44,622 bases of DNA from a virus, in IMG/VR virus record IMGVR_UViG_3300047446_000146, positions 1-44,622 of that record; one strand, 5' to 3'. The translations under genes and the position numbers were made by a program. Positions 5,345 through 38,785 of this stretch are shown piece by piece. Numbering within the stretch: the stretch's first letter is position 1; each line of letters opens with the position of its first letter. The notes beneath the pieces are model-generated. The model had not been told where the DNA came from, made no database searches, and saw only the letters and a list, made by a program, of their open reading frames with translations.

Positions 5345-5743
5345 TTAGTAAGCTGTTGGGGTTAAGTAAAATCCTCCCCCATCTAGCGAAATTCGGCGTC
5401 GGATGGTCTCACCGCCCTTCACGTCTATCTCTGACTCGTGCATGGTCCCAGAGAACATCGTGCTCGGTTTGATACCGAGGATATGCCTACCTGGCGCTAG
5501 TCCAAATGTCGCAACCTCTGCGGAAGCAAACTCGGCAGCCAAGGCGCCATCGATGTACAAGCTGTAATTCACCCCTGATCCAAAGGCTCCGCTGTCGCGC
5601 GTGACGATCAGCTTGGATTCTCTCTGCTGCGTGAAACCATGTAGCCTCTTTGCCGGTACTGGGTCTGCAGCTTCCGGAGATATCGGCGATGTTGAGCACC
5701 CGGCCAGCAGGGCGACTGCAAGTGCCCCAATCAGAATTCGCAT
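5345..5743 (-). CDS. Small outer-membrane-type lipoprotein (moron)
   Basis: 132 aa. The N-terminus is a lipoprotein signal peptide (MRILIGALAVALLAGC) with lipobox LLAGC, so Cys16 should be lipidated. The rest is a beta-rich domain with YSLYIDGALAAEF and APGRHILGI, resembling PEGA/carboxypeptidase-regulatory-like folds. The start has a GGGAG ribosome site. The gene has its own terminator and sits between tail genes K and I, which is typical of a moron. Phage lipoproteins often block superinfection at the envelope, but that role here is inference from location and topology only. Confidence 0.75.
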   Translation of the reverse strand: MRILIGALAVALLAGCSTSPISPEAADPVPAKRLHGFTQQRESKLIVTRDSGAFGSGVNYSLYIDGALAAEFASAEVATFGLAPGRHILGIKPSTMFSGTMHESEIDVKGGETIRRRISLDGGGFYLTPTAY

Positions 5744-5903
5744 GATGCTCCCTCATTGAGAAAGCGCCGAGGGTAGCACCGGCCTGTCTACCCATCCAGC
5801 GCTGAAGTCATAACCGTACTCCTGTATGAATTACCAGTTCCTTGAATAATGGCCCGGGGCTATCTTTAGCATTCGACTGCTATCAAAAATCAAGGGACCT
5901 GAA

Positions 5904-6407
5904 ATGGCTATTCGATTCCGGAAGAGCATCAAAATCGTGCCAGGTATTCGCCTGAATGTCAGCAAAAGCGGCGTCAGTACTTCCATTGGTGGAAGGGGCG
6001 CCACCGTAAACATCGGAAAGAAAGGTACACGCGTCACAGCCAGCATTCCCGGTACTGGGCTGTCAGCATCCCATCTTTACAAAGCGCCAAAGCGCAGAAA
6101 GGCGTCCTCGGCGCGCGCGCAGCAATCCCCGGCGGAACAAGCGATTTCATTAGCCATCGTCGGCATTATCGCGACATTCATTGCCTACAAAGCATCAGGC
6201 GTATTTTCGTTTGTAGCCGGATTCGTCGCATTTTGTGTCATTGCGTATTTTGCCTTAGGACTACTGAGCCTCATGGGCGGGAAGGTTAAAAGTAAGCATC
6301 CAGATCATTCAGCCATGTATTGGGCCGAGAAAAGTAGGCAGATACAGGCTGAGCATCAGGCGCTCCCTGACTTGCCACAGCCTCAGAAGCCACTATCGCG
6401 GCGCTAA
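5904..6407 (+). CDS. DUF4236 membrane protein
   Basis: 167 aa, plus strand, opposite to the tail operon. The N-terminal 55 residues match DUF4236 (FRKSIKIVPGIRLNVSKSGV, then GGRGATVNIGKKGTRVT). Two hydrophobic segments follow (about 83-100 and 105-128) before a charged tail. AAGGGA lies six bases before the ATG. DUF4236 has no firm biochemical function that I know of. First gene of a five-gene plus-strand cargo run (5904-8231) inserted between K and I. Confidence 0.75.
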   Translation: MAIRFRKSIKIVPGIRLNVSKSGVSTSIGGRGATVNIGKKGTRVTASIPGTGLSASHLYKAPKRRKASSARAQQSPAEQAISLAIVGIIATFIAYKASGVFSFVAGFVAFCVIAYFALGLLSLMGGKVKSKHPDHSAMYWAEKSRQIQAEHQALPDLPQPQKPLSRR

Positions 6408-6499
6408 TAACAAGCGGAATAAGATCAGCCGATCAAGCCCCGCAAGCGATACCCGAATGAGTAACCATCCCTTCCCCATGCCCTGAAGAAGGATTGCCA

Positions 6500-6712
6500 A
6501 TGAGAAAACTAAGATGTCATGAGGCAGTAGGCCTGAATGTCGACGAGATTCTCAACGAGTTCAACGAGAGAGCTTCTGAGTTCGGCATCACCGAAGAAAG
6601 CGTCGTGTCGGTAAACGTCACAACTCCGCGTCACGGAATAAAGATCTTGGATGGCCGCGAAACGAAAGATGCGCGCGTTCAGGTCACGATCGTCTACTGG
6701 AGTGATCGGTAG
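6500..6712 (+). CDS. Hypothetical small protein in the tail cargo block
   Basis: 70 aa from the ATG at 6500, which has GAAGGA six bases upstream. An in-frame TTG at 6494 is less likely. The sequence alternates a helical N-terminal half (EILNEFNERASEFG) with beta strands (ESVVSVNVTT, DARVQVTIVYW). I recognise no family. It lies 92 bases after the DUF4236 gene on the same strand. Confidence 0.55.
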   Translation: MRKLRCHEAVGLNVDEILNEFNERASEFGITEESVVSVNVTTPRHGIKILDGRETKDARVQVTIVYWSDR

Positions 6713-6768
6713 CCCGCTCGCCGAGCCCAGCCAGCCTGGGCTTTGCCATAACACGCAAGGATGCAAAC

Positions 6769-7395
6769 ATGCCCTCAGACCAAGACCGAGAAATACCCGA
6801 AGTCAATTTAAGAGAGTTCATAAATTACATCGGGATTGAGCGAGTGATTCCTGGGCGCTATAGCCTGCTATTAGCAGCTCATCTCCTAGGAGGAGCGCTA
6901 TCGGGACGGCAAAACCCGGCGAGAATTATTCGCGAAATCGAACTTCTTGAGCGGGGCGAGGTTGGGCAGTTTAAAAAGCCTATTCAAAACCGGCATCCTC
7001 CTCTCAAAGGACTTTGGCACAAGCACTACATGCAGGATGGACTTGCCTCACTTGCACAAAATGTTCAGAAAGGTCTCACGTGGTTCGAAATACCGCTATT
7101 CAAACAGATGATCCAAGACGCCCAGAATGCTGGAGAAGAGAGATTTATAGAGCCGCATCACGTACCGGCCTTGGTTGAAGATATCGTGAGCGGAAACCGC
7201 CAAAGACTTGCAGAGCGCCAGGCGTTGAGTGGGGAATGGATTGTGTTCGCCAAACACGAAGGCCAGAACTACTACCTCACAATCGCAACGCATGACAGCC
7301 AAACACACCAGCAGGTGCGCGAGCAGATCAACCAAGTCTGCTGCGTGGAATTTTCCTTCTTATCGCAGCTCTTGGCTGATGCGGAGAATGCATGA
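6769..7395 (+). CDS. Hypothetical protein, first of a coupled pair
   Basis: 208 aa with AAGGA seven bases before the ATG. Soluble, mixed alpha/beta, no signal peptide or TM segment. The N-terminal half is helical (INYIGIERVIPGRYSLLLAA; ARIIREIELLERGEVGQFKK). The C-terminal half (GEWIVFAKHEGQNYYLTIAT) looks like a compact beta domain ending in CCVEF. The stop overlaps the next start by four bases (ATGA at 7392), so the two are probably co-translated. I do not recognise the family. Confidence 0.65.
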   Translation: MPSDQDREIPEVNLREFINYIGIERVIPGRYSLLLAAHLLGGALSGRQNPARIIREIELLERGEVGQFKKPIQNRHPPLKGLWHKHYMQDGLASLAQNVQKGLTWFEIPLFKQMIQDAQNAGEERFIEPHHVPALVEDIVSGNRQRLAERQALSGEWIVFAKHEGQNYYLTIATHDSQTHQQVREQINQVCCVEFSFLSQLLADAENA

Positions 7396-7667
7396 CAAAT
7401 CGCGACTTGAGGGAAGTGGCCGCGATGGAACGCGCGCTAACTTTCAAATGCCTCGGCTACACCAAATGCGAAGACGGCCTGATCGAGCGGTACCACCTAA
7501 AGGTGACGGAACGTGATAGCGGGAGGATTGAAACTATCGCTGTTGACCCAAAACACCTCGCCTCGGCCCGTAGCATGAAAAGGATCCTGCTTGATCGGTG
7601 CATATTCTACAAAGCAACTCGCACGGAGCACGACGAGATGCTGCTTGCGATTCTCAATCCAGTCTGA
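7392..7667 (+). CDS. Hypothetical protein, second of a coupled pair
   Basis: 91 aa, starting inside the stop of the preceding gene (ATGA overlap). The sequence has a beta-hairpin core (FKCLGYTKCEDGLIERYHLK; ESGRIETIAVDP-like) and a C-terminal helix. No known domain is recognised. Tight coupling suggests that the two products act together, possibly as a toxin/antitoxin or two-part exclusion pair, but nothing in the sequence proves this. Confidence 0.6.
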   Translation: MTNRDLREVAAMERALTFKCLGYTKCEDGLIERYHLKVTERDSGRIETIAVDPKHLASARSMKRILLDRCIFYKATRTEHDEMLLAILNPV

Positions 7668-7724
7668 CGCAACCCAAAAACTCATCCGCCCCGTTTTTTT
7701 TCACACAACATTGAAGTCCGCCGC

Positions 7725-8231
7725 ATGACCATTGATACGAATAGCATCACGACGCTCCTCGCCTGGCTTTGGGAAAATGGTGCCGCGAATATCTGGGGGG
7801 CCATTTGCTTGGCCGCTCTAACGAGAGGTCCCAGAAAGCTCCGGGACTTCACTGCTGGGCTGCCGGCAGCCATCCGCTCCGGCTCGCGCAAGCGGAATAG
7901 CCCAGTCGCCTATCTCAGGAAACTCAAGCTGAAAGATCTACGTCAGATCCGCCATTTCCGTTTCAACGACGCGTGGATTGCCAGAGAAGTTAGCCGAGGC
8001 AGTACCGCTCTCATTCTTTTCGGGTTGAGCGCGGGATTCTGGCTAATGGCGTTGGGCCTGAAGGAGCAGATGGTGGTCTCAGGACAGTTGCTCTCTACAG
8101 ACGCAACCACCGTTTTTATCTCAGCTTTCCCGGCGTATGTTTTCGAGATTATGTGGCTTTACAGATCCACCCGCGCAAATAGGCTGATTGACTATCGACA
8201 GAAATCGAAGCTCTGGCGCTTCCGTCGCTAG
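7725..8231 (+). CDS. Hypothetical membrane protein
   Basis: 168 aa, last plus-strand gene of the cargo run. A hydrophobic segment near the N-terminus (about 16-32, IWGAICLAALT), a basic middle region rich in Arg/Lys (about 33-80) and two further hydrophobic segments (about 92-112 and 123-145) suggest two or three membrane passes with a basic C-terminus (KLWRFRR). The ribosome site is weak. No family is recognised. The basic cytoplasmic loop could bind nucleic acid or lipid, which is inference. Confidence 0.55.
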   Translation: MTIDTNSITTLLAWLWENGAANIWGAICLAALTRGPRKLRDFTAGLPAAIRSGSRKRNSPVAYLRKLKLKDLRQIRHFRFNDAWIAREVSRGSTALILFGLSAGFWLMALGLKEQMVVSGQLLSTDATTVFISAFPAYVFEIMWLYRSTRANRLIDYRQKSKLWRFRR

Positions 8232-8244
8232 CTGACGCCGGATG

Positions 8245-8271
8245 CAAAAAGCCCAGCGCGGGGCTGGGCTT
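8245..8271 (-). terminator. Terminator after the DUF6338 pair
   Basis: Hairpin AAGCCCAG / CTGGGCTT (8249-8256 and 8264-8271), preceded on the plus strand by AAAAA, so it ends in a T-run on the minus strand. It is placed to end the minus-strand gene stopping at 8301 and lies 14 bases after the convergent plus-strand gene. It may work both ways. Confidence 0.7.
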
Positions 8272-8300
8272 GGCGGTTCGCGTACGGAAGGGGTGCACCG

Positions 8301-8462
8301 CTAATCGATATGGACAGGATCACGAGACCGGTCATCTGTGTGCCTAGGCTCGTCGGAATCCAGTTTCGGCCGATTTTTCGCCGGTGGCGGATTGATGTTC
8401 AGACCGTTTTTTTCTGATCCTTTCTCAAAAATCCCCTGCGTCCTACCACGTTCGTTATTCAT
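8301..8462 (-). CDS. 53-aa partner of the DUF6338 protein
   Basis: A short gene. Its ATG at 8462 overlaps the last eight bases of the DUF6338 gene (stop at 8455-8457), so translation is probably coupled. The product is hydrophilic, low-complexity and probably disordered: NNERGRTQGIFEKGSEKNG then NINPPPAKNRPKLDSDEPR and an acidic/His tail. It ends 30 bases before the terminator at 8271, which supports a two-gene unit. I recall similar short proline-rich proteins beside DUF6338 genes elsewhere, but I could not check this. Confidence 0.55.
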   Translation of the reverse strand: MNNERGRTQGIFEKGSEKNGLNINPPPAKNRPKLDSDEPRHTDDRSRDPVHID

Positions 8463-9072
8463 CGGTGACCTCCGCTTGCTCTAGGATTTCAACCCACAAC
8501 ACGTCCACGTTGGAGATCAGTATAAAATCTATCTTCGCGCTGGGGAGCTTTTTTTCCGTCCCTACCCAAACAGGCATCTCCATCAGATAATACCCTGAAG
8601 GATTGGCAGGCAAGACCCGAGGATACCCTTGCAGCCGCCGTCCATCAAGCAAGTTGAGGACAATTCTCAACTGACGATCGCCTTTAAAGCTCTTCACGAA
8701 GAGGTTCCACTCCGGAACAGGTGTAGAGCTCCTGTCCGTTAACTCCAAGCGCCGAGCCCACCTGTAGAGCGTGTCATGTTTCGCCCAATATGCCAGCGCA
8801 ACACCGAGCGTGACGGCAAATAAAACCGCCCATCCAGTATCCAGCGAATCGTACCAATCAGCGATGGGGAACCAATTGCCGACCCAGAAGCACAGGTTCT
8901 TAAGGCCTAGCACTATCGATTGAATCGCCGCACTGCAGATCAGTGCCTGAACAACCCGCTCAAACTGACCCGGTTTAACAACGTCCGACAGCCAATAAAA
9001 TATGATGGTGGTAACAAAGCCAGGAAGCAATGTCTGCAAGATGGGTAAAATCTGGCTTGTCGCTTCGTCCAT
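8455..9072 (-). CDS. DUF6338 family membrane protein
   Basis: 205 aa. Matches DUF6338 in layout: N-terminal ILQTLLPGFVTTIIFYWLS, then FERVVQALICSAAIQSIVLG, a third hydrophobic segment (about 79-95, WAVLFAVTLGVALAYWA) and a soluble C-terminal domain with LNLLDGRRLQGYPRVLP and a final strand KIDFILISNVDVLWVE. Three TM helices plus a cytoplasmic beta domain are likely. Function is unknown. It forms a unit with the overlapping 53-aa gene and is a moron within the K-I cargo block. Confidence 0.75.
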   Translation of the reverse strand: MDEATSQILPILQTLLPGFVTTIIFYWLSDVVKPGQFERVVQALICSAAIQSIVLGLKNLCFWVGNWFPIADWYDSLDTGWAVLFAVTLGVALAYWAKHDTLYRWARRLELTDRSSTPVPEWNLFVKSFKGDRQLRIVLNLLDGRRLQGYPRVLPANPSGYYLMEMPVWVGTEKKLPSAKIDFILISNVDVLWVEILEQAEVTDE

Positions 9073-9248
9073 GGCTGATCCCCAATTCGCCGGCTGTCCA
9101 GAGCATAGTCCGTATTAGCCAGCATGCCTGTACAGATCGCCAGTAGCCGCATTCAGTCTAAGCGTAGTAGCGTTGCGCCTCCAATGAACCGCCTCGGTCC
9201 GTTGCCTGTAAGCCCATGGACCGGGGCAATGTGACCTCGGAGGTCGAT

Positions 9249-9461
9249 GTGAGCAATGACGAATATTCACAAAGTAAAAAGGACTGGATCTACACCTGGG
9301 GCGTAGTCCGTGATCAACCCAACATCATGGTTGGTGCGTTCCGGACCAAGCCTGAGGCTGAGGCAAGAGCGCGAACCATGGGAGAGGGTTACAAGGCCGC
9401 CTACATTTTCCATTTGCCAGGTACGGACGAATTCATTATCGAAGACGAACCACAGGCCTAA
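9249..9461 (+). CDS. Hypothetical small protein
   Basis: 70 aa from a GTG at 9249, preceded by CGGAGG five bases upstream. An in-frame ATG at 9216 would add 11 residues but lacks a ribosome site. The sequence holds DWIYTWGVVRDQPNIMVGAF and a short helix with repeated EAEARAR, then YIFHLPGTDEFIIEDE. It is soluble and of unknown family. It runs opposite to the tail genes and converges on the small gene at 9471-9707. Confidence 0.5.
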   Translation: MSNDEYSQSKKDWIYTWGVVRDQPNIMVGAFRTKPEAEARARTMGEGYKAAYIFHLPGTDEFIIEDEPQA

Positions 9462-9470
9462 CGTGCGAGG

Positions 9471-9707
9471 TCAGGTTGCCGTAAAGGTGATCTGACCAAC
9501 CCCAGTCAAAAGCTCGGCTCTCAACCCAGCCCTGCCCTCGTACTTCCGGCGATAGACGCTCTCACCCGGCCCGACTTTACCGGTCAGCTTTAGTCGATCG
9601 ATTTCAACGTCACCATCAAGGATCGCGACTTCGGCCTTGCATCCCACATTAACCCCATTCTCGGTCGCGAACAGGTTCTGCATCGTCAGTACGTAGCCTT
9701 GCTGCAT
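9471..9707 (-). CDS. Hypothetical phage protein downstream of K
   Basis: 78 aa. The ATG at 9707 has AGGAG with good spacing. A GTG at 9725 in frame is less likely. It follows tail gene K by 25 bases on the same strand, so it is the first cargo gene or a last member of the tail-tip group. The product is beta-rich (GYVLTMQNLFATENGVNVG; EVAILDGDVEIDRLKLTGKV) and may be a small all-beta domain. No family is recognised. Confidence 0.6.
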   Translation of the reverse strand: MQQGYVLTMQNLFATENGVNVGCKAEVAILDGDVEIDRLKLTGKVGPGESVYRRKYEGRAGLRAELLTGVGQITFTAT

Positions 9708-34364: not shown

Positions 34365-34790
34365 TCAGGCGACCTTTACGGACTGCTTGAACACTTCCAG
34401 GCTGACGATCACCTCGTCGGCTTCCTTGATCAGTTCCGATTTCTCACGCGAGCACACATGCCCGTCCGACTGTGCGTCGTAGGCCAGTCGAGTCACGTCA
34501 GCGAGATCAACGTGCAGGCGCATCAGCGCCGAATTCAGATCGGTAGGTGCAGGCTTCTCTTTCGGGACCAGGTCAAACCCGAAGTGCTCTGCCCAAGCTT
34601 TCAGCGGGCGGAAGTCCTTGGTGTACTTCATGATCCGGTGCAGCTCCTGCACGTTCATCTTGTGGCTGTCGTAGTCCGGGTTGGCTTTCTGCGACAGCAA
34701 AGTGCGCGAAGGGAAACTCGCGCCCTCGGCAATCTTGCTCGCGCCATGCGTGTCCACCACGTCGTAGATGGCCTTCATCAATTCCTGCAT
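34365..34790 (-). CDS. cII: Phage regulatory protein CII
   Basis: 141 aa with GAGGTG four bases before the ATG. QELMKAIYDVVDTHGASKIA, then GASFPSRTLLSQKANPDYDS and MNVQELHRIMKYTKDFRPLK match the phage regulatory CII family, with a C-terminal helical part. It lies after cro in the rightward-type early operon, as lambda cII does. It should help the choice for lysogeny by activating repressor or integration genes. Its target promoters are not identified here. Confidence 0.82.
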   Translation of the reverse strand: MQELMKAIYDVVDTHGASKIAEGASFPSRTLLSQKANPDYDSHKMNVQELHRIMKYTKDFRPLKAWAEHFGFDLVPKEKPAPTDLNSALMRLHVDLADVTRLAYDAQSDGHVCSREKSELIKEADEVIVSLEVFKQSVKVA

Positions 34791-34871: not shown

Positions 34872-35078
34872 ATGACCGACTCTTCCGAACTGGAAGGCGA
34901 GATAACCGCCCTCTGCTGCTTTGTGGGTGCCTTGGCATCCACCCTGCCCCTGTCTTCTCAGATGAGGCTCTGGCCTGCCTTCGAGCAGAAGGCCAGTCAG
35001 TTACGTGATCAGTTGAGCAAAGAGGCTTTGCGCGGCTTTGAGCTGGCGACGATCTCGCTTAGCTCGAAGCGCGGTTAG
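34872..35078 (+). CDS. Small plus-strand gene between cro and cII
   Basis: 68 aa from the ATG at 34872 (AAGGA eight bases upstream). Helical: SELEGEITALCCFVGALAST, then MRLWPAFEQKASQLRDQLSK. It runs against the cro-cII operon and its stop overlaps the cro stop by four bases. Just upstream is a perfect inverted repeat GTGGCG TTA CGCCAC (34813-34827). Expression in the lysogen is possible. No family is recognised. Confidence 0.5.
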   Translation: MTDSSELEGEITALCCFVGALASTLPLSSQMRLWPAFEQKASQLRDQLSKEALRGFELATISLSSKRG

Positions 35079-35281
35079 GCAGCGGTTTTCTGTGGTGCGA
35101 GCTGGCAGGGAAATGGGCGGATCTCCTCCGCCGTCAGCTTCCCGTCCTCATGCTCGATCACAAGGATTTCCCGAGCTGCCTTGAGGGCCTTCGAAATGGC
35201 CGGAGCACTGACGCCAAGACCTTTGGCAACTGCGGATTGACCAATTCGCTCGACCAGCTCTGGCAATGGCGTCTTCTTCAT
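35075..35281 (-). CDS. cro: Cro-like repressor
   Basis: 68 aa. LPELVERIGQSAVAKGLGVS followed by APAISKALKAAREILV is the Cro helix-turn-helix, and the C-terminal strand/proline tail matches Cro dimer arms. First gene after the operators at 35318-35379, driven from the minus promoter there. It should compete with CI at these sites during lytic growth. Confidence 0.88.
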   Translation of the reverse strand: MKKTPLPELVERIGQSAVAKGLGVSAPAISKALKAAREILVIEHEDGKLTAEEIRPFPCQLAPQKTAA

Positions 35282-35313: not shown

Positions 35314-35342
35314 ATATTAACCGGCGGTTAGCTTTCAAGCAA
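35314..35342 (-). promoter_or_regulatory. PR-equivalent promoter of the cro operon
   Basis: On the minus strand TTGCTT (35342-35337), 17-bp spacer, TATATT-type -10 TAATAT (35319-35314). One 13-bp operator fills the spacer and touches the -10, so CI or Cro binding would block it. The first gene downstream is cro. Confidence 0.8.
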
Positions 35343-35379
35343 CACCGGCGGTTAGCGCAAATAACTTAACCAACGGTTA
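35318..35379. promoter_or_regulatory. OR-equivalent operators (three sites)
   Basis: Sites TAACCGGCGGTTA (35318-35330), ACACCGGCGGTTA (35342-35354) and TAACCAACGGTTA (35367-35379), spaced 24 and 25 bp. They are palindromic with weaker half sites in the second and changed centre in the third. The same sequence recurs at 38749-38785, which identifies it as the phage operator. Confidence 0.88.
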
Positions 35380-35389: not shown

Positions 35390-36268
35390 ATGACGAAAAA
35401 GAAAGAGCTGTCCCCAGAACTCAAGGCTGAATGCGATGCTGCCAAGGCACTCTTCGTATCGAAGAAAAACGCGCTCGGTCTGACCCAGGCGGGTCTCGCG
35501 GAAGCCGCCGATATTTCTGCGGCCGCAGTCGCTATGTACCTGAATGGAACAAATCCGCTGAATGCCAAGTTCGCTGCGGTGCTGTCGCGCGAAATCGGGG
35601 TGCCTGTAGAGAAATTCAGCAAGCGGCTCGCCAAGGAGATCAGTGGCCTAACAGCCGCTGCTGATGAGCCAGCCGCTAGCGCGAATGCTTCGGCCGCTGA
35701 CTTGGTCCGGCAAATGCTTGCCAGCAAAGGGAAAAATATCTCAGAGGGCACTCGCAAAGCGCTACTGGCGGTGGCCGAAGGTGACGACGGTGAAGCTCCT
35801 GTCAGCGCTTTGGTACACGACGCCTATAAACCTGGCTTGATTGGCGACGAGGTATGGATCGCTCACTTGGACGTCCGTGGCGCCCAGGGCGGTGGAGAGG
35901 TCGTGCACGACTTCCCCGAACTGCTTCAGGACCTCCGTGTCAGCCCCTCTCATCTGCGGATGATGGGGATCCAGTTCAAAGAGCACTTCCACCTCAAAAT
36001 CGTAACCGGATGGGGCCAGTCCATGACCCCGACCATCAAGCACGGCGACCCATGCCTAGTGGATGCCAGCATCAAAAACTTCATAGGTGACGGAATCTAC
36101 TTCTTCTCATATCAGGGCTTCCAGTACATCAAGCGCCTGCAGATGAAGGGGAAGGACAAATTCAAAATGATCTCGGACAACCGTAAGCACAAAAACGAAG
36201 ACATCCTTATTGATGAAACATACATTCAGGCGCGTGTATTGTTCGTGTGGAACGGTCATTTAGTATAA
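35390..36268 (+). CDS. cI: CI-like repressor (HTH + S24 peptidase domain)
   Basis: 292 aa. Residues 31-52 form a helix-turn-helix (LTQAGLAEAADISAAAVAMY). The C-terminal half is an S24/LexA-type domain with nucleophile Ser211 (GWGQSMTPTIKHGD) and Lys248 (YIKRL). A classical Ala-Gly cleavage site is not obvious between them; RGAQGGGE at 164-170 is at the usual place of the domain start. The ATG has no ribosome site, consistent with a near-leaderless mRNA. It should hold the lysogen by binding the operators on both sides of the immunity region. Confidence 0.9.
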   Translation: MTKKKELSPELKAECDAAKALFVSKKNALGLTQAGLAEAADISAAAVAMYLNGTNPLNAKFAAVLSREIGVPVEKFSKRLAKEISGLTAAADEPAASANASAADLVRQMLASKGKNISEGTRKALLAVAEGDDGEAPVSALVHDAYKPGLIGDEVWIAHLDVRGAQGGGEVVHDFPELLQDLRVSPSHLRMMGIQFKEHFHLKIVTGWGQSMTPTIKHGDPCLVDASIKNFIGDGIYFFSYQGFQYIKRLQMKGKDKFKMISDNRKHKNEDILIDETYIQARVLFVWNGHLV

Positions 36269-36333: not shown

Positions 36334-37479
36334 ATGAAAAAGCGGTCTAATACTAAAGCGAAACATGAAATTAGGGCAGCGTTAAAGCGCGCAAAAAGGA
36401 GCAACCGTACAAAAGGTAAAGGCGAAATCGTTAATGTCAACCCAATATATCTTCGTCCATTTAACGGTGATATTACCGCTCGTCGACCTCATGAAGACCC
36501 AAAAATCCAAGTGCCGGCTAAGCTTGACCTATACTCAAAACAGAATTTCGATGCGTTCTGTAAGTTTATTGGCAATCTTCGAGAGATGGCAAAGTACAAT
36601 GAGCGCATCATACTTTGCTTTAGACACACTCATCGTATTACTGCAGCAGCAGCTCTCAGAATGCTTGCTGAGGTTGCACACCTACAAACTAATCTTAAAA
36701 ACTTAAGCTTCGGGTGCTCAATACCGCCGAAGCGCCGCGGTAAATACAAGAACGCCGACAAAGTAGTGGAAGGTATTCTTCAGCAGATAGGATTTTTCAA
36801 ACTTATCGGCCAACCTGAGCGCACCCCAACTAAGCAAAGTAACATCACTTGCTGGAAGCAGCTTTCCGGCTATCTCGCTGATGGAAGCTTGGCAGGCAGC
36901 TTGCTAAATAGCCTGCCCGTTTCGATTTCAAAACAATCTAAAGCCCAGCTCTACAAGGGGGCTATTGAAGCCATGGCCAACAGTGTTGACCACGCTTACC
37001 CCGGAACAGGCGCTACGCATCCAGAAAACAGATGGTGGATGCTAGTGGGTACTTCTAGCGACAAAATTACGTTGATCGTCTGCGATCTTGGAGTTGGAAT
37101 TCCTGTCACGCTACCGCAAAAACACCCAGATTCTTTACTGAAATCTATTTTCAAACTCTGCGGCATTATGGGCAATGGTGACGCCGACCTTATTCATGCG
37201 TCTACGTTCATCAAGCGTTCTCGCACGAATCAAACTCATCGCGGCAAGGGAGGAGCAGATATTCGAGCAATTACTGAACATTTTCCATCGGCTCTGCTCT
37301 CAATCAGAAGTAATAGAGGATGCTACGTGGTCGCCGGAGCGAGGCGTGAAGGCAGCATGCCCGACGGATACAAGCTCTTACCCGGCACCAATGGACGGGA
37401 GTGGTCAGCTAGCTATAATGGCTCTATCCAAGGTACATTAATTGAGTGGACCGTATCTTTGAAGGAATTGGAAGAATGA
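36334..37479 (+). CDS. GHKL-type ATPase in the rex position
   Basis: 381 aa. The GHKL/HATPase motifs are in order: N box Glu212...Asn216 (GAIEAMANSVDHAYPG), G1 box Asp251-Leu-Gly253-Val-Gly255 (VCDLGVGIP), G2 box RGKGG (303-307) and a G3-like GTLIEW (367-372). The N-terminus is very basic (KKRSNTKAKHEIRAALKRAK). Residues about 90-130 (RIILCFRHTHRITAAAALRM) resemble a STAS-like strand-helix unit. It lies 65 bases after cI on the same strand and is A+T-richer than its surroundings. Next gene overlaps by ATGA. Confidence 0.82.
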   Translation: MKKRSNTKAKHEIRAALKRAKRSNRTKGKGEIVNVNPIYLRPFNGDITARRPHEDPKIQVPAKLDLYSKQNFDAFCKFIGNLREMAKYNERIILCFRHTHRITAAAALRMLAEVAHLQTNLKNLSFGCSIPPKRRGKYKNADKVVEGILQQIGFFKLIGQPERTPTKQSNITCWKQLSGYLADGSLAGSLLNSLPVSISKQSKAQLYKGAIEAMANSVDHAYPGTGATHPENRWWMLVGTSSDKITLIVCDLGVGIPVTLPQKHPDSLLKSIFKLCGIMGNGDADLIHASTFIKRSRTNQTHRGKGGADIRAITEHFPSALLSIRSNRGCYVVAGARREGSMPDGYKLLPGTNGREWSASYNGSIQGTLIEWTVSLKELEE

Positions 37480-37814
37480 AAGTTATCCGCATTACAGAAT
37501 TTTCCGAATTTCCAGGACCCCGATACATATCGCTCGGACCTTATTCGGGTGAGGCTTTTCGAAAACAGGTCCTCATACCGAATATACAAGCGCACGCAGG
37601 TAAATTAATCGTTGACCTGGACGGTGCTCTAGGCTATGGCTCATCTTTTCTAGATGAGGCGTTTGGCGGCCTGATTCGGGAGGGCGTAGATAGTAAAGTA
37701 GTCTTAGAGATATGCGAAAACCTGAAATCGCAGGATGATCCATCGCTCAAGATTCAGATTACTCAGTGGGTTAAAGAGGCTATCGACATTAAAAATCAGG
37801 ATAATTCTAAATGA
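37476..37814 (+). CDS. DUF4325 STAS-like protein
   Basis: 112 aa from the ATG at 37476, inside the stop of the ATPase gene. It holds the DUF4325 pattern: GPRYISLGPYSGEAFRKQVL, then LIVDLDGALGYGSSFLDEAF and GGLIREG. STAS folds bind partner ATPases of the anti-sigma-factor type, so a direct pairing with the upstream GHKL protein is likely. Its stop overlaps the next start by four bases. Soluble, no TM segment. Confidence 0.82.
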   Translation: MKVIRITEFSEFPGPRYISLGPYSGEAFRKQVLIPNIQAHAGKLIVDLDGALGYGSSFLDEAFGGLIREGVDSKVVLEICENLKSQDDPSLKIQITQWVKEAIDIKNQDNSK

Positions 37815-38281
37815 GTGCTCCTGCAGAGTCAGGTCTCAGCATCGGCTCGTATGTCGGCTGGACCTTTGCTTTTGTTGGTCTGGTAGCTACATTGATTGGA
37901 TGGCGAGTTCGAGGCGAACAGCAGCGTACGTTGGCAAAAAGGAAAGATATTCACGACTCGATTGATAGAGCTGTGAAAGCACTCACCGAATATGAAGATG
38001 GCGCTATTTCATTCTGGACAGAGAAAGATACAAAGTTTAATAAAAATAGTATTTTGACGCTTCACAGGCGTCTCACTGTCTCCCTCAGACAGATCGAGGA
38101 GCTCACAGAGTTACCTGCACCATATGAAATGTTGCAAACGTTGCATAGAGCAGCAACTCTAGACTTTGAGAGCGCAAACCGGCCTATAAGTTGTAATTCT
38201 GAACGCATCGCAAGGATTGCAGCCTCATCTGGAAAAATGCTCAACTCCAGTTATCTGATGAAGTCTTGGAAAAAAAAGTAA
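37811..38281 (+). CDS. One-TM protein, third gene of the rex-position operon
   Basis: 156 aa. One N-terminal TM helix (about 13-31, GWTFAFVGLVATLIGW) is followed by a cytoplasmic helical domain (KDIHDSIDRAVKALTEYEDG; TLHRRLTVSLRQIEELTELP) and a basic end (SWKKK). It begins in the stop of the STAS gene. In lambda the second rex gene is also a membrane protein (RexB, ion channel) beside a soluble sensor, but this protein has only one TM helix and no visible sequence likeness to RexB. Confidence 0.72.
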   Translation: MSAPAESGLSIGSYVGWTFAFVGLVATLIGWRVRGEQQRTLAKRKDIHDSIDRAVKALTEYEDGAISFWTEKDTKFNKNSILTLHRRLTVSLRQIEELTELPAPYEMLQTLHRAATLDFESANRPISCNSERIARIAASSGKMLNSSYLMKSWKKK

Positions 38282-38744: not shown

Positions 38745-38773
38745 AAATTAACCGCCGGTATTGACGATAACAA
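38745..38773 (-). promoter_or_regulatory. Operator-controlled minus promoter for the 107-aa gene
   Basis: Minus strand TTGTTA (38773-38768), 17-bp spacer, TAATTT (38750-38745). The operator at 38749-38761 occupies the spacer end and -10, the same geometry as at PR. It faces away from the PL equivalent. Confidence 0.62.
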
Positions 38774-38785
38774 AACCGGCGGTTA
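38749..38785. promoter_or_regulatory. OL-equivalent operators (two sites)
   Basis: TAACCGCCGGTAT (38749-38761) and AAACCGGCGGTTA (38773-38785), 24 bp apart, matching the operators beside cro. The two clusters flank cI and the rex-position operon, so CI-mediated looping over about 3.4 kb is possible. Confidence 0.85.

Follow-up and report, generated by a model that had tools for sequence, protein, structure and literature searches.

The SpoIIAB-SpoIIAA and RsbW-RsbV switches associate a kinase with a STAS partner and a sigma factor, and their output is regulatory, SpoIIAA acting on sigma F. In phage lambda, the cI-rexAB block is flanked by operators, and RexAB is made of two genes, of which rexB encodes a polytopic protein, with no kinase. 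Two further kinase-STAS systems, CapK/CapS and VapKSC, have been described by Chambers et al. (EMBO J, June 2026; PMC13373217). In VapKSC, the STAS-GHKL kinase VapK is proposed to be switched on by ssDNA and to phosphorylate the STAS antitoxin VapS at Ser48, which would free the PIN toxin VapC; the S48E substitution in VapS abolishes neutralisation (PMC13373217). The vapKSC operon provides E. coli with ~2-log protection against phage Bas42, and this protection needs VapS S48, VapK F54 and VapC D28 (PMC13373217). CapK responds to DNA damage, and the CapK/CapS pair regulates immune operons, CapS acting on DNA; the VapKSC paper makes no mention of DUF4325 or of a transmembrane third gene (PMC13373217).

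The window analysed here, i.e., the whole 44,622-bp virus record, contains a lambda-like control region in which three plus-strand genes follow the cI repressor gene. The first, K (36334-37479), encodes a 381-aa protein resembling the GHKL kinases SpoIIAB and RsbW; the second, S (37476-37814), a 112-aa DUF4325/STAS-like protein; and the third, T (37811-38281), a 156-aa protein with a single transmembrane (TM) helix, which is the proposed effector. The gene for the CI-like S24 repressor (35390..36268, plus strand; PF00717 and PF01381; phrog_4, E 1e-32) stands directly upstream of this trio, while the genes for the Cro-like repressor (35075-35281, minus strand; phrog_35, E 1e-11) and a CII-like protein (34365-34790, minus strand) lie on the opposite side of cI, together with the O-like and DnaC-like replication genes. 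The initial annotation had the three genes joined by ATGA overlaps after cI; the overlap is present at both the K/S and S/T junctions, but cI and K do not overlap and are separated by an A+T-rich gap of ~65 bp, in which no match to a sigma-70 promoter was found.

Sites resembling the palindrome TTAACCGNCGGTTA are found in three copies before cI and two after T. The first, OR-like cluster occupies the cro/cI interval (35317..35379, with sites at 35317, 35341 and 35366), and the second, OL-like cluster follows the trio (38748..38785, with sites at 38748 and 38772). Just two further positions elsewhere in the window come within three mismatches of the operator. Over the whole window, the operator pattern gives 13 matches against 5.45 expected, a count also reached by 3 of 100 shuffles, so that support for the operators rests on the clustering of the sites. 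With operators before cI and after T, the cI-trio block is operator-bounded in the same way as cI-rexAB in lambda, and the region is a lambda-like OR-cI-[trio]-OL arrangement. The rexAB-like position claimed at the outset, between two operator clusters, is thus borne out by the sites and by the gene order. Like RexAB, the trio is cI-distal between OR and OL and presumably expressed from the prophage, and a membrane output is proposed for both. A PHROG scan, the sole sequence comparison made, showed no Rex family in the trio, and homology to RexAB was rejected for want of any visible sequence relation.

The trio is also set apart by its base composition, as had been noted from its A+T-richness: its GC content is 0.458 versus 0.577 for the remaining window, and its 1.9 kb form the lowest-GC stretch of the entire window. 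A second stretch of lower GC (about 0.52-0.54), near the tail genes at 5500-9500, holds a membrane-protein ORF (8455-9072, minus strand) and an orphan ORF (6769-7395, plus strand), and is possibly a second accessory-gene slot.

K carries the full set of GHKL motifs, with E212 and N216 in the N box (36967-36981), D251-x-G253 in the G1 box (from 37084) and G304-K-G306 in the G2 box. The motif residues E212, N216 and D251, named in the first reading of the gene, are invariant across the 110 trio kinases compared, as are G253 and G306; residue F96, a possible counterpart of VapK F54, is a Phe in 78 of the 110. K is assigned to phrog_3364 (E 2e-48), a PHROG family of unknown function, and in Pfam HATPase_c barely registers; beyond this borderline match, no family is assigned to it by PADLOC, NCBIfam or Pfam. 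The top PDB match of a profile built from 79 relatives of K is SpoIIAB, the anti-sigma F factor (E 0.004), and RsbW comes next. The AlphaFold2 model (mean pLDDT 88.6) consists of a basic N-terminal helix, a low-confidence or disordered linker, a STAS-looking domain with beta-alpha-beta-alpha-beta-alpha topology at about residues 57-160, and, C-terminal to it, the GHKL domain (about 169-380). Among solved structures, the best Foldseek matches of the model include SpoIIAB (1til; E 8e-4, TM-score 0.64 by target). The N-terminal part of the K profile matches SpoIIAA weakly (E 0.23), and no similarity between the N-terminal domain of K and S was found by profile comparison, so that the STAS assignment rests on the predicted topology and on this weak match. 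It appears likely from sequence and model that K is a SpoIIAB-like protein kinase with a STAS-like N-terminal domain, its kinase activity being deduced.

K shares with SpoIIAB and RsbW the kinase fold and motifs, with S as its probable STAS partner in the place of SpoIIAA or RsbV, SpoIIAB being the best PDB sequence match of K. The trio differs in the extra STAS-like domain of K and in having no sigma factor, a dedicated membrane protein standing where the SpoIIAB/RsbW switch has one. CapK and CapS likewise resemble K and S, CapK being a STAS+GHKL kinase whose substrate is a STAS protein. However, CapK has an N-terminal HTH, CapS has a C-terminal winged HTH, and the operon that CapS represses is a separate one, whereas neither HTH is seen in K or S, and the trio includes its third gene. 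A Pfam search showed no HTH, and the predicted N-terminus of K comprises one basic helix and the disordered linker. An ordinary two-component system was rejected, as the unit includes no receiver gene.

S matches PF14213 (E 8e-11), which agrees with its first description as a DUF4325 STAS-like protein, and consists, over its 112 aa, of a STAS domain alone, lacking any DNA-binding domain. In the searchable literature, mentions of DUF4325 are incidental. The candidate phospho-acceptor, Ser56/Ser57 (37641-37646), is located at the N-terminal end of the second helix: Ser57 is found in 110 of 110 trios, and a Ser or Thr at position 56 in 101 of 110. S thus has a conserved Ser/Thr at STAS helix 2, as VapKSC does, with the invariant Ser one residue off register. 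Indeed, VapS Ser48 aligns with Ser56, while the invariant Ser57 aligns with a Pro in VapS (Ser-Pro-Phe-Phe in VapS versus Ser-Ser-Phe-Leu in S), which leaves the phosphosite of S uncertain by one residue. In the PDB, the trio STAS profile ranks Escherichia VapS (9z7o) highest (E 2e-6, with two VapS-type rows included in the profile); VapS still comes first with the trio-only profile, but at E 0.19. Departures from the usual arrangement were also seen. Two loci (L176, L212) encode GHKL and DUF4325 fused in single proteins, in which the phosphosite reads GQAF or GQGF, with no Ser, and more fused GHKL-DUF4325 ORFs occur in the order of genome G004. In Vibrio parahaemolyticus (L012, 3953-4294), a STAS gene with no upstream kinase is followed by a gene for a two-TM protein, and its product has a Gly at the position of the invariant Ser57.

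The TM helix of T spans residues 11-29 (37841-37897), and AlphaFold2 predicts an all-helical protein (mean pLDDT 90) with helices at residues 9-70, 78-99, 105-116 and 131-144, in keeping with the one TM helix and helical part first proposed. The first of these helices passes from the membrane into the cytosol and is followed by the three shorter ones. In 68 of 74 single-TM T proteins, the 15 residues C-terminal to the TM helix are more positive than those before it, and in two-TM variants the loop is mostly neutral or negative. Taken together, these charge distributions place the helical bundle of T in the cytosol, which is the compartment where S and K must be. A two-TM hairpin replaces the single TM helix in six T homologues, mostly from Clostridia and Bacteroidota (L024, L025, L041, L057, L059, L087). 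T has no Pfam hit, no Pfam family recurs among its homologues, and neither PADLOC nor NCBIfam has a family for it. Compared with PDB folds, T shows no match below E 0.001, the best and insignificant ones being to four-helix sensor or bundle domains.

The initial annotation would have been undermined by a lack of co-occurrence of the three genes in other genomes. A scan with a STAS-alignment pattern, FL[ED]E[AVC]FGG[L] (8-9 residues), recovered 320 relatives from GTDB genomes and 223 from viral contigs, and the top 80 of each set were retained; residues F58-G65 of S fall within this pattern, and Ser57 lies outside it. A search with the single K protein returned copies of the same phage only and none in genomes. 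The co-occurrence set comprised 132 non-redundant DUF4325 loci with enough flank, 68 genomic and 64 viral. K is found upstream of S in 127 of them (65/68 genomic and 62/64 viral), and a T-sized ORF downstream in 128 (66/68 and 62/64). An N-terminal TM helix is predicted in 117 of these 128 third genes (60 genomic, 57 viral), versus 86 of 376 control ORFs of the same size in the flanks (23%), and the complete trio with N-terminal TM helix is present at 59/68 genomic and 57/64 viral loci. A chance gathering of neighbours was rejected on the strength of this co-occurrence and of the TM frequency relative to control ORFs. No sigma factor was met as an alternative partner in the operon, the third gene being T, by size and position, in 128 of the 132 loci.

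Because the pattern could bias these counts, the Pfam profile was used for a second census, covering three orders, in which the trio occurs in 13/17, about 13/18 and 3-4/12 DUF4325-positive genomes; the other genomes have three K-S-PIN loci, single fused GHKL-STAS proteins or unclear arrangements. A T profile search of 392 order-sampled genomes gave 10 matches above 25 bits, all 10 beside S and K. Pairwise distances are correlated between the three proteins (Mantel K-S 0.71, K-T 0.81, S-T 0.68; p 0.001), which partly reflects co-transfer as a single operon. The relatives cover about ten phyla, including Pseudomonadota, Bacillota, Bacteroidota, Spirochaetota, Patescibacteria lineages and Omnitrophota. 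The trio is found with identical order in Marinobacter phage AS1, a Helicobacter prophage and E. coli prophages, as well as on plasmids of Vibrio, Acinetobacter and Leptospira, and it also occurs on plasmid DNA of Novosphingobium. It is a conserved three-gene system of phages, plasmids and chromosomes, and while widespread it is apparently undescribed in the searchable literature.

The closest described relative is VapKSC. Both systems have the order kinase-STAS-third gene, a SpoIIAB-like kinase with a STAS-like N-terminal domain and a Ser that starts STAS helix 2, and both occur in diverse bacteria. The three K-S-PIN, vapKSC-like loci of the census (L183, L191 and L194) indicate that their K and S components are homologous to those of the trio: their STAS proteins match PF14213 (49, 32 and 64 bits, respectively) and their kinases match the trio kinase HMM (E 2e-8, 1.5e-8 and 6e-6). 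The placing of vapKSC-like STAS proteins within DUF4325 is a link that the VapKSC paper does not make (PMC13373217). A search for vapKSC in E. coli genomes with a single query found none. The third gene is what differs, VapC being a PIN toxin, whereas T has a TM helix and a helical bundle and no PIN domain; unlike VapKSC, the trio is also often carried by phages and located in the immunity region. Since K and S are homologous and the third gene is different, the trio is, at the level of sequence, a sibling of VapKSC rather than a member, with a membrane protein replacing the RNA-cutting toxin. The view that no described system has exactly this composition seems to hold for the searchable literature, but the kinase-STAS half is of a known kind, which makes the trio a variant and not a categorically new system.

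By analogy with VapKSC, we favour, as moderately probable, a reading in which the trio is a lysogen-expressed, phosphorylation-switched exclusion module of toxin-antitoxin type. The positional and functional homology to VapKSC suggests T as the effector, S as its phospho-sensitive inhibitor and K as the trigger. In a quiet lysogen, S would bind the cytosolic helical bundle of membrane-anchored T and keep it inactive. When another phage infects the cell, or when DNA is damaged in some other way, K would be activated, possibly, as in CapK, through ssDNA bound between the STAS and GHKL domains. Active K would phosphorylate S at Ser56 and/or Ser57, and phosphorylated S would release T, which would then assemble in the inner membrane and disable the infected cell. 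The two roles first assigned on general grounds, S as partner or substrate of the kinase and the TM protein as effector, both remain probable, the latter now with an analogue in which the gene at the same position encodes a phosphorylation-released toxin. Kinase activity, phosphosite, S-T binding, toxicity of T, exclusion of phages and the signal that activates K are all inferred, and the model is weakest where it makes T toxic and where it assigns the phosphorylated residue. A point against a toxin is that T has no recognised toxin fold, and a DNA-damage-sensing K would also be exposed to the induction of its own prophage.

The single TM helix and helical bundle of T would equally suit an anchor or a sensor. 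T could then recruit or activate K and S at the membrane within a signalling complex whose output is regulation without killing, a reading in line with the insignificant matches of T to four-helix sensor or bundle domains and with CapK/CapS, where the same kinase-STAS pair can work purely in regulation (PMC13373217). We consider it rather unlikely: S is a bare 112-aa STAS domain devoid of a DNA-binding domain, neither a sigma factor nor a fixed target gene adjoins the trio, and T forms a closed unit of three genes with S and K, in which it takes the place of the VapC toxin, with a bundle whose predicted cytosolic location argues against an extracytoplasmic sensor.

The genomic setting bears on the exclusion module as well. 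In 28 of the 53 phage-type loci scanned, a phrog_4 CI-like repressor is encoded immediately upstream of the trio. The Q-holin interval is a typical accessory-gene slot, and it is there that two E. coli lambdoid prophages (L224, 11413-13279; L225, 9394-11269) have the trio, antisense between the Q antiterminator and holin genes; by DNA similarity to one subfamily, the trio is found in 8 of 5,426 complete genomes. These neighbours, cI in many phages and Q and holin in E. coli, together with the response of CapK to DNA damage (PMC13373217), could also point to a device that senses DNA damage or superinfection and modulates induction or lysis by the prophage that carries it, e.g., with T acting like a holin or antiholin, and that excludes no other phage. 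This seems distinctly improbable for a trio whose direction in the E. coli prophages is the reverse of that of the lysis genes and that is common on plasmids and on chromosomes of about ten phyla, many with no phage genes nearby. The plasmid copies in Vibrio, Acinetobacter, Novosphingobium and Leptospira, and the toxin-antitoxin-like linkage of T with S, would suit post-segregational killing that maintains a plasmid or prophage, any effect on phages being incidental. Such addiction is very doubtful here: it requires no ATP-dependent kinase, and the invariant active site of K argues for an inducible trigger.

Among the 128 neighbour proteins of 36 chromosomal trios, single ones match IetA, MzaA, Thoeris ThsB/ThsC, AbiLi, SoFic and restriction enzymes; as this comparison has no control set of neighbours, an association with defence islands is only suggestive. 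Altogether, occurrence in phages, on plasmids and on chromosomes is more in keeping with a mobile accessory cassette for exclusion or defence than with a core function of the phage.

If the trio does serve defence or exclusion, systems of this kind are common, with 320 relatives in GTDB and 223 in viral contigs, and absent from the searchable literature and from PADLOC (2023), none of whose families matches K, S or T with a meaningful score. The anti-sigma kinase/STAS switch would then be a trigger that can be reused with different effectors, and prophages would have, besides RexAB, a second known means of excluding rivals by genes of the cI operon. We see as evenly balanced the broader proposition that T is the founding member of a new family of membrane effectors, very widely distributed and kept inactive by a STAS antitoxin that can be phosphorylated, that kinase-STAS partner switching serves immunity in general and can be combined with one output or another (PIN RNase, membrane protein, transcription), and that prophages commonly use its membrane form, in the position of rexAB, for exclusion. 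Clear mutant tests are made possible by the copies in E. coli and by the precedent of VapKSC. On one Acinetobacter plasmid (L007, 3502-4785), the N-terminal half of the kinase has been lost beside an IS3-family element, and S and T are intact.
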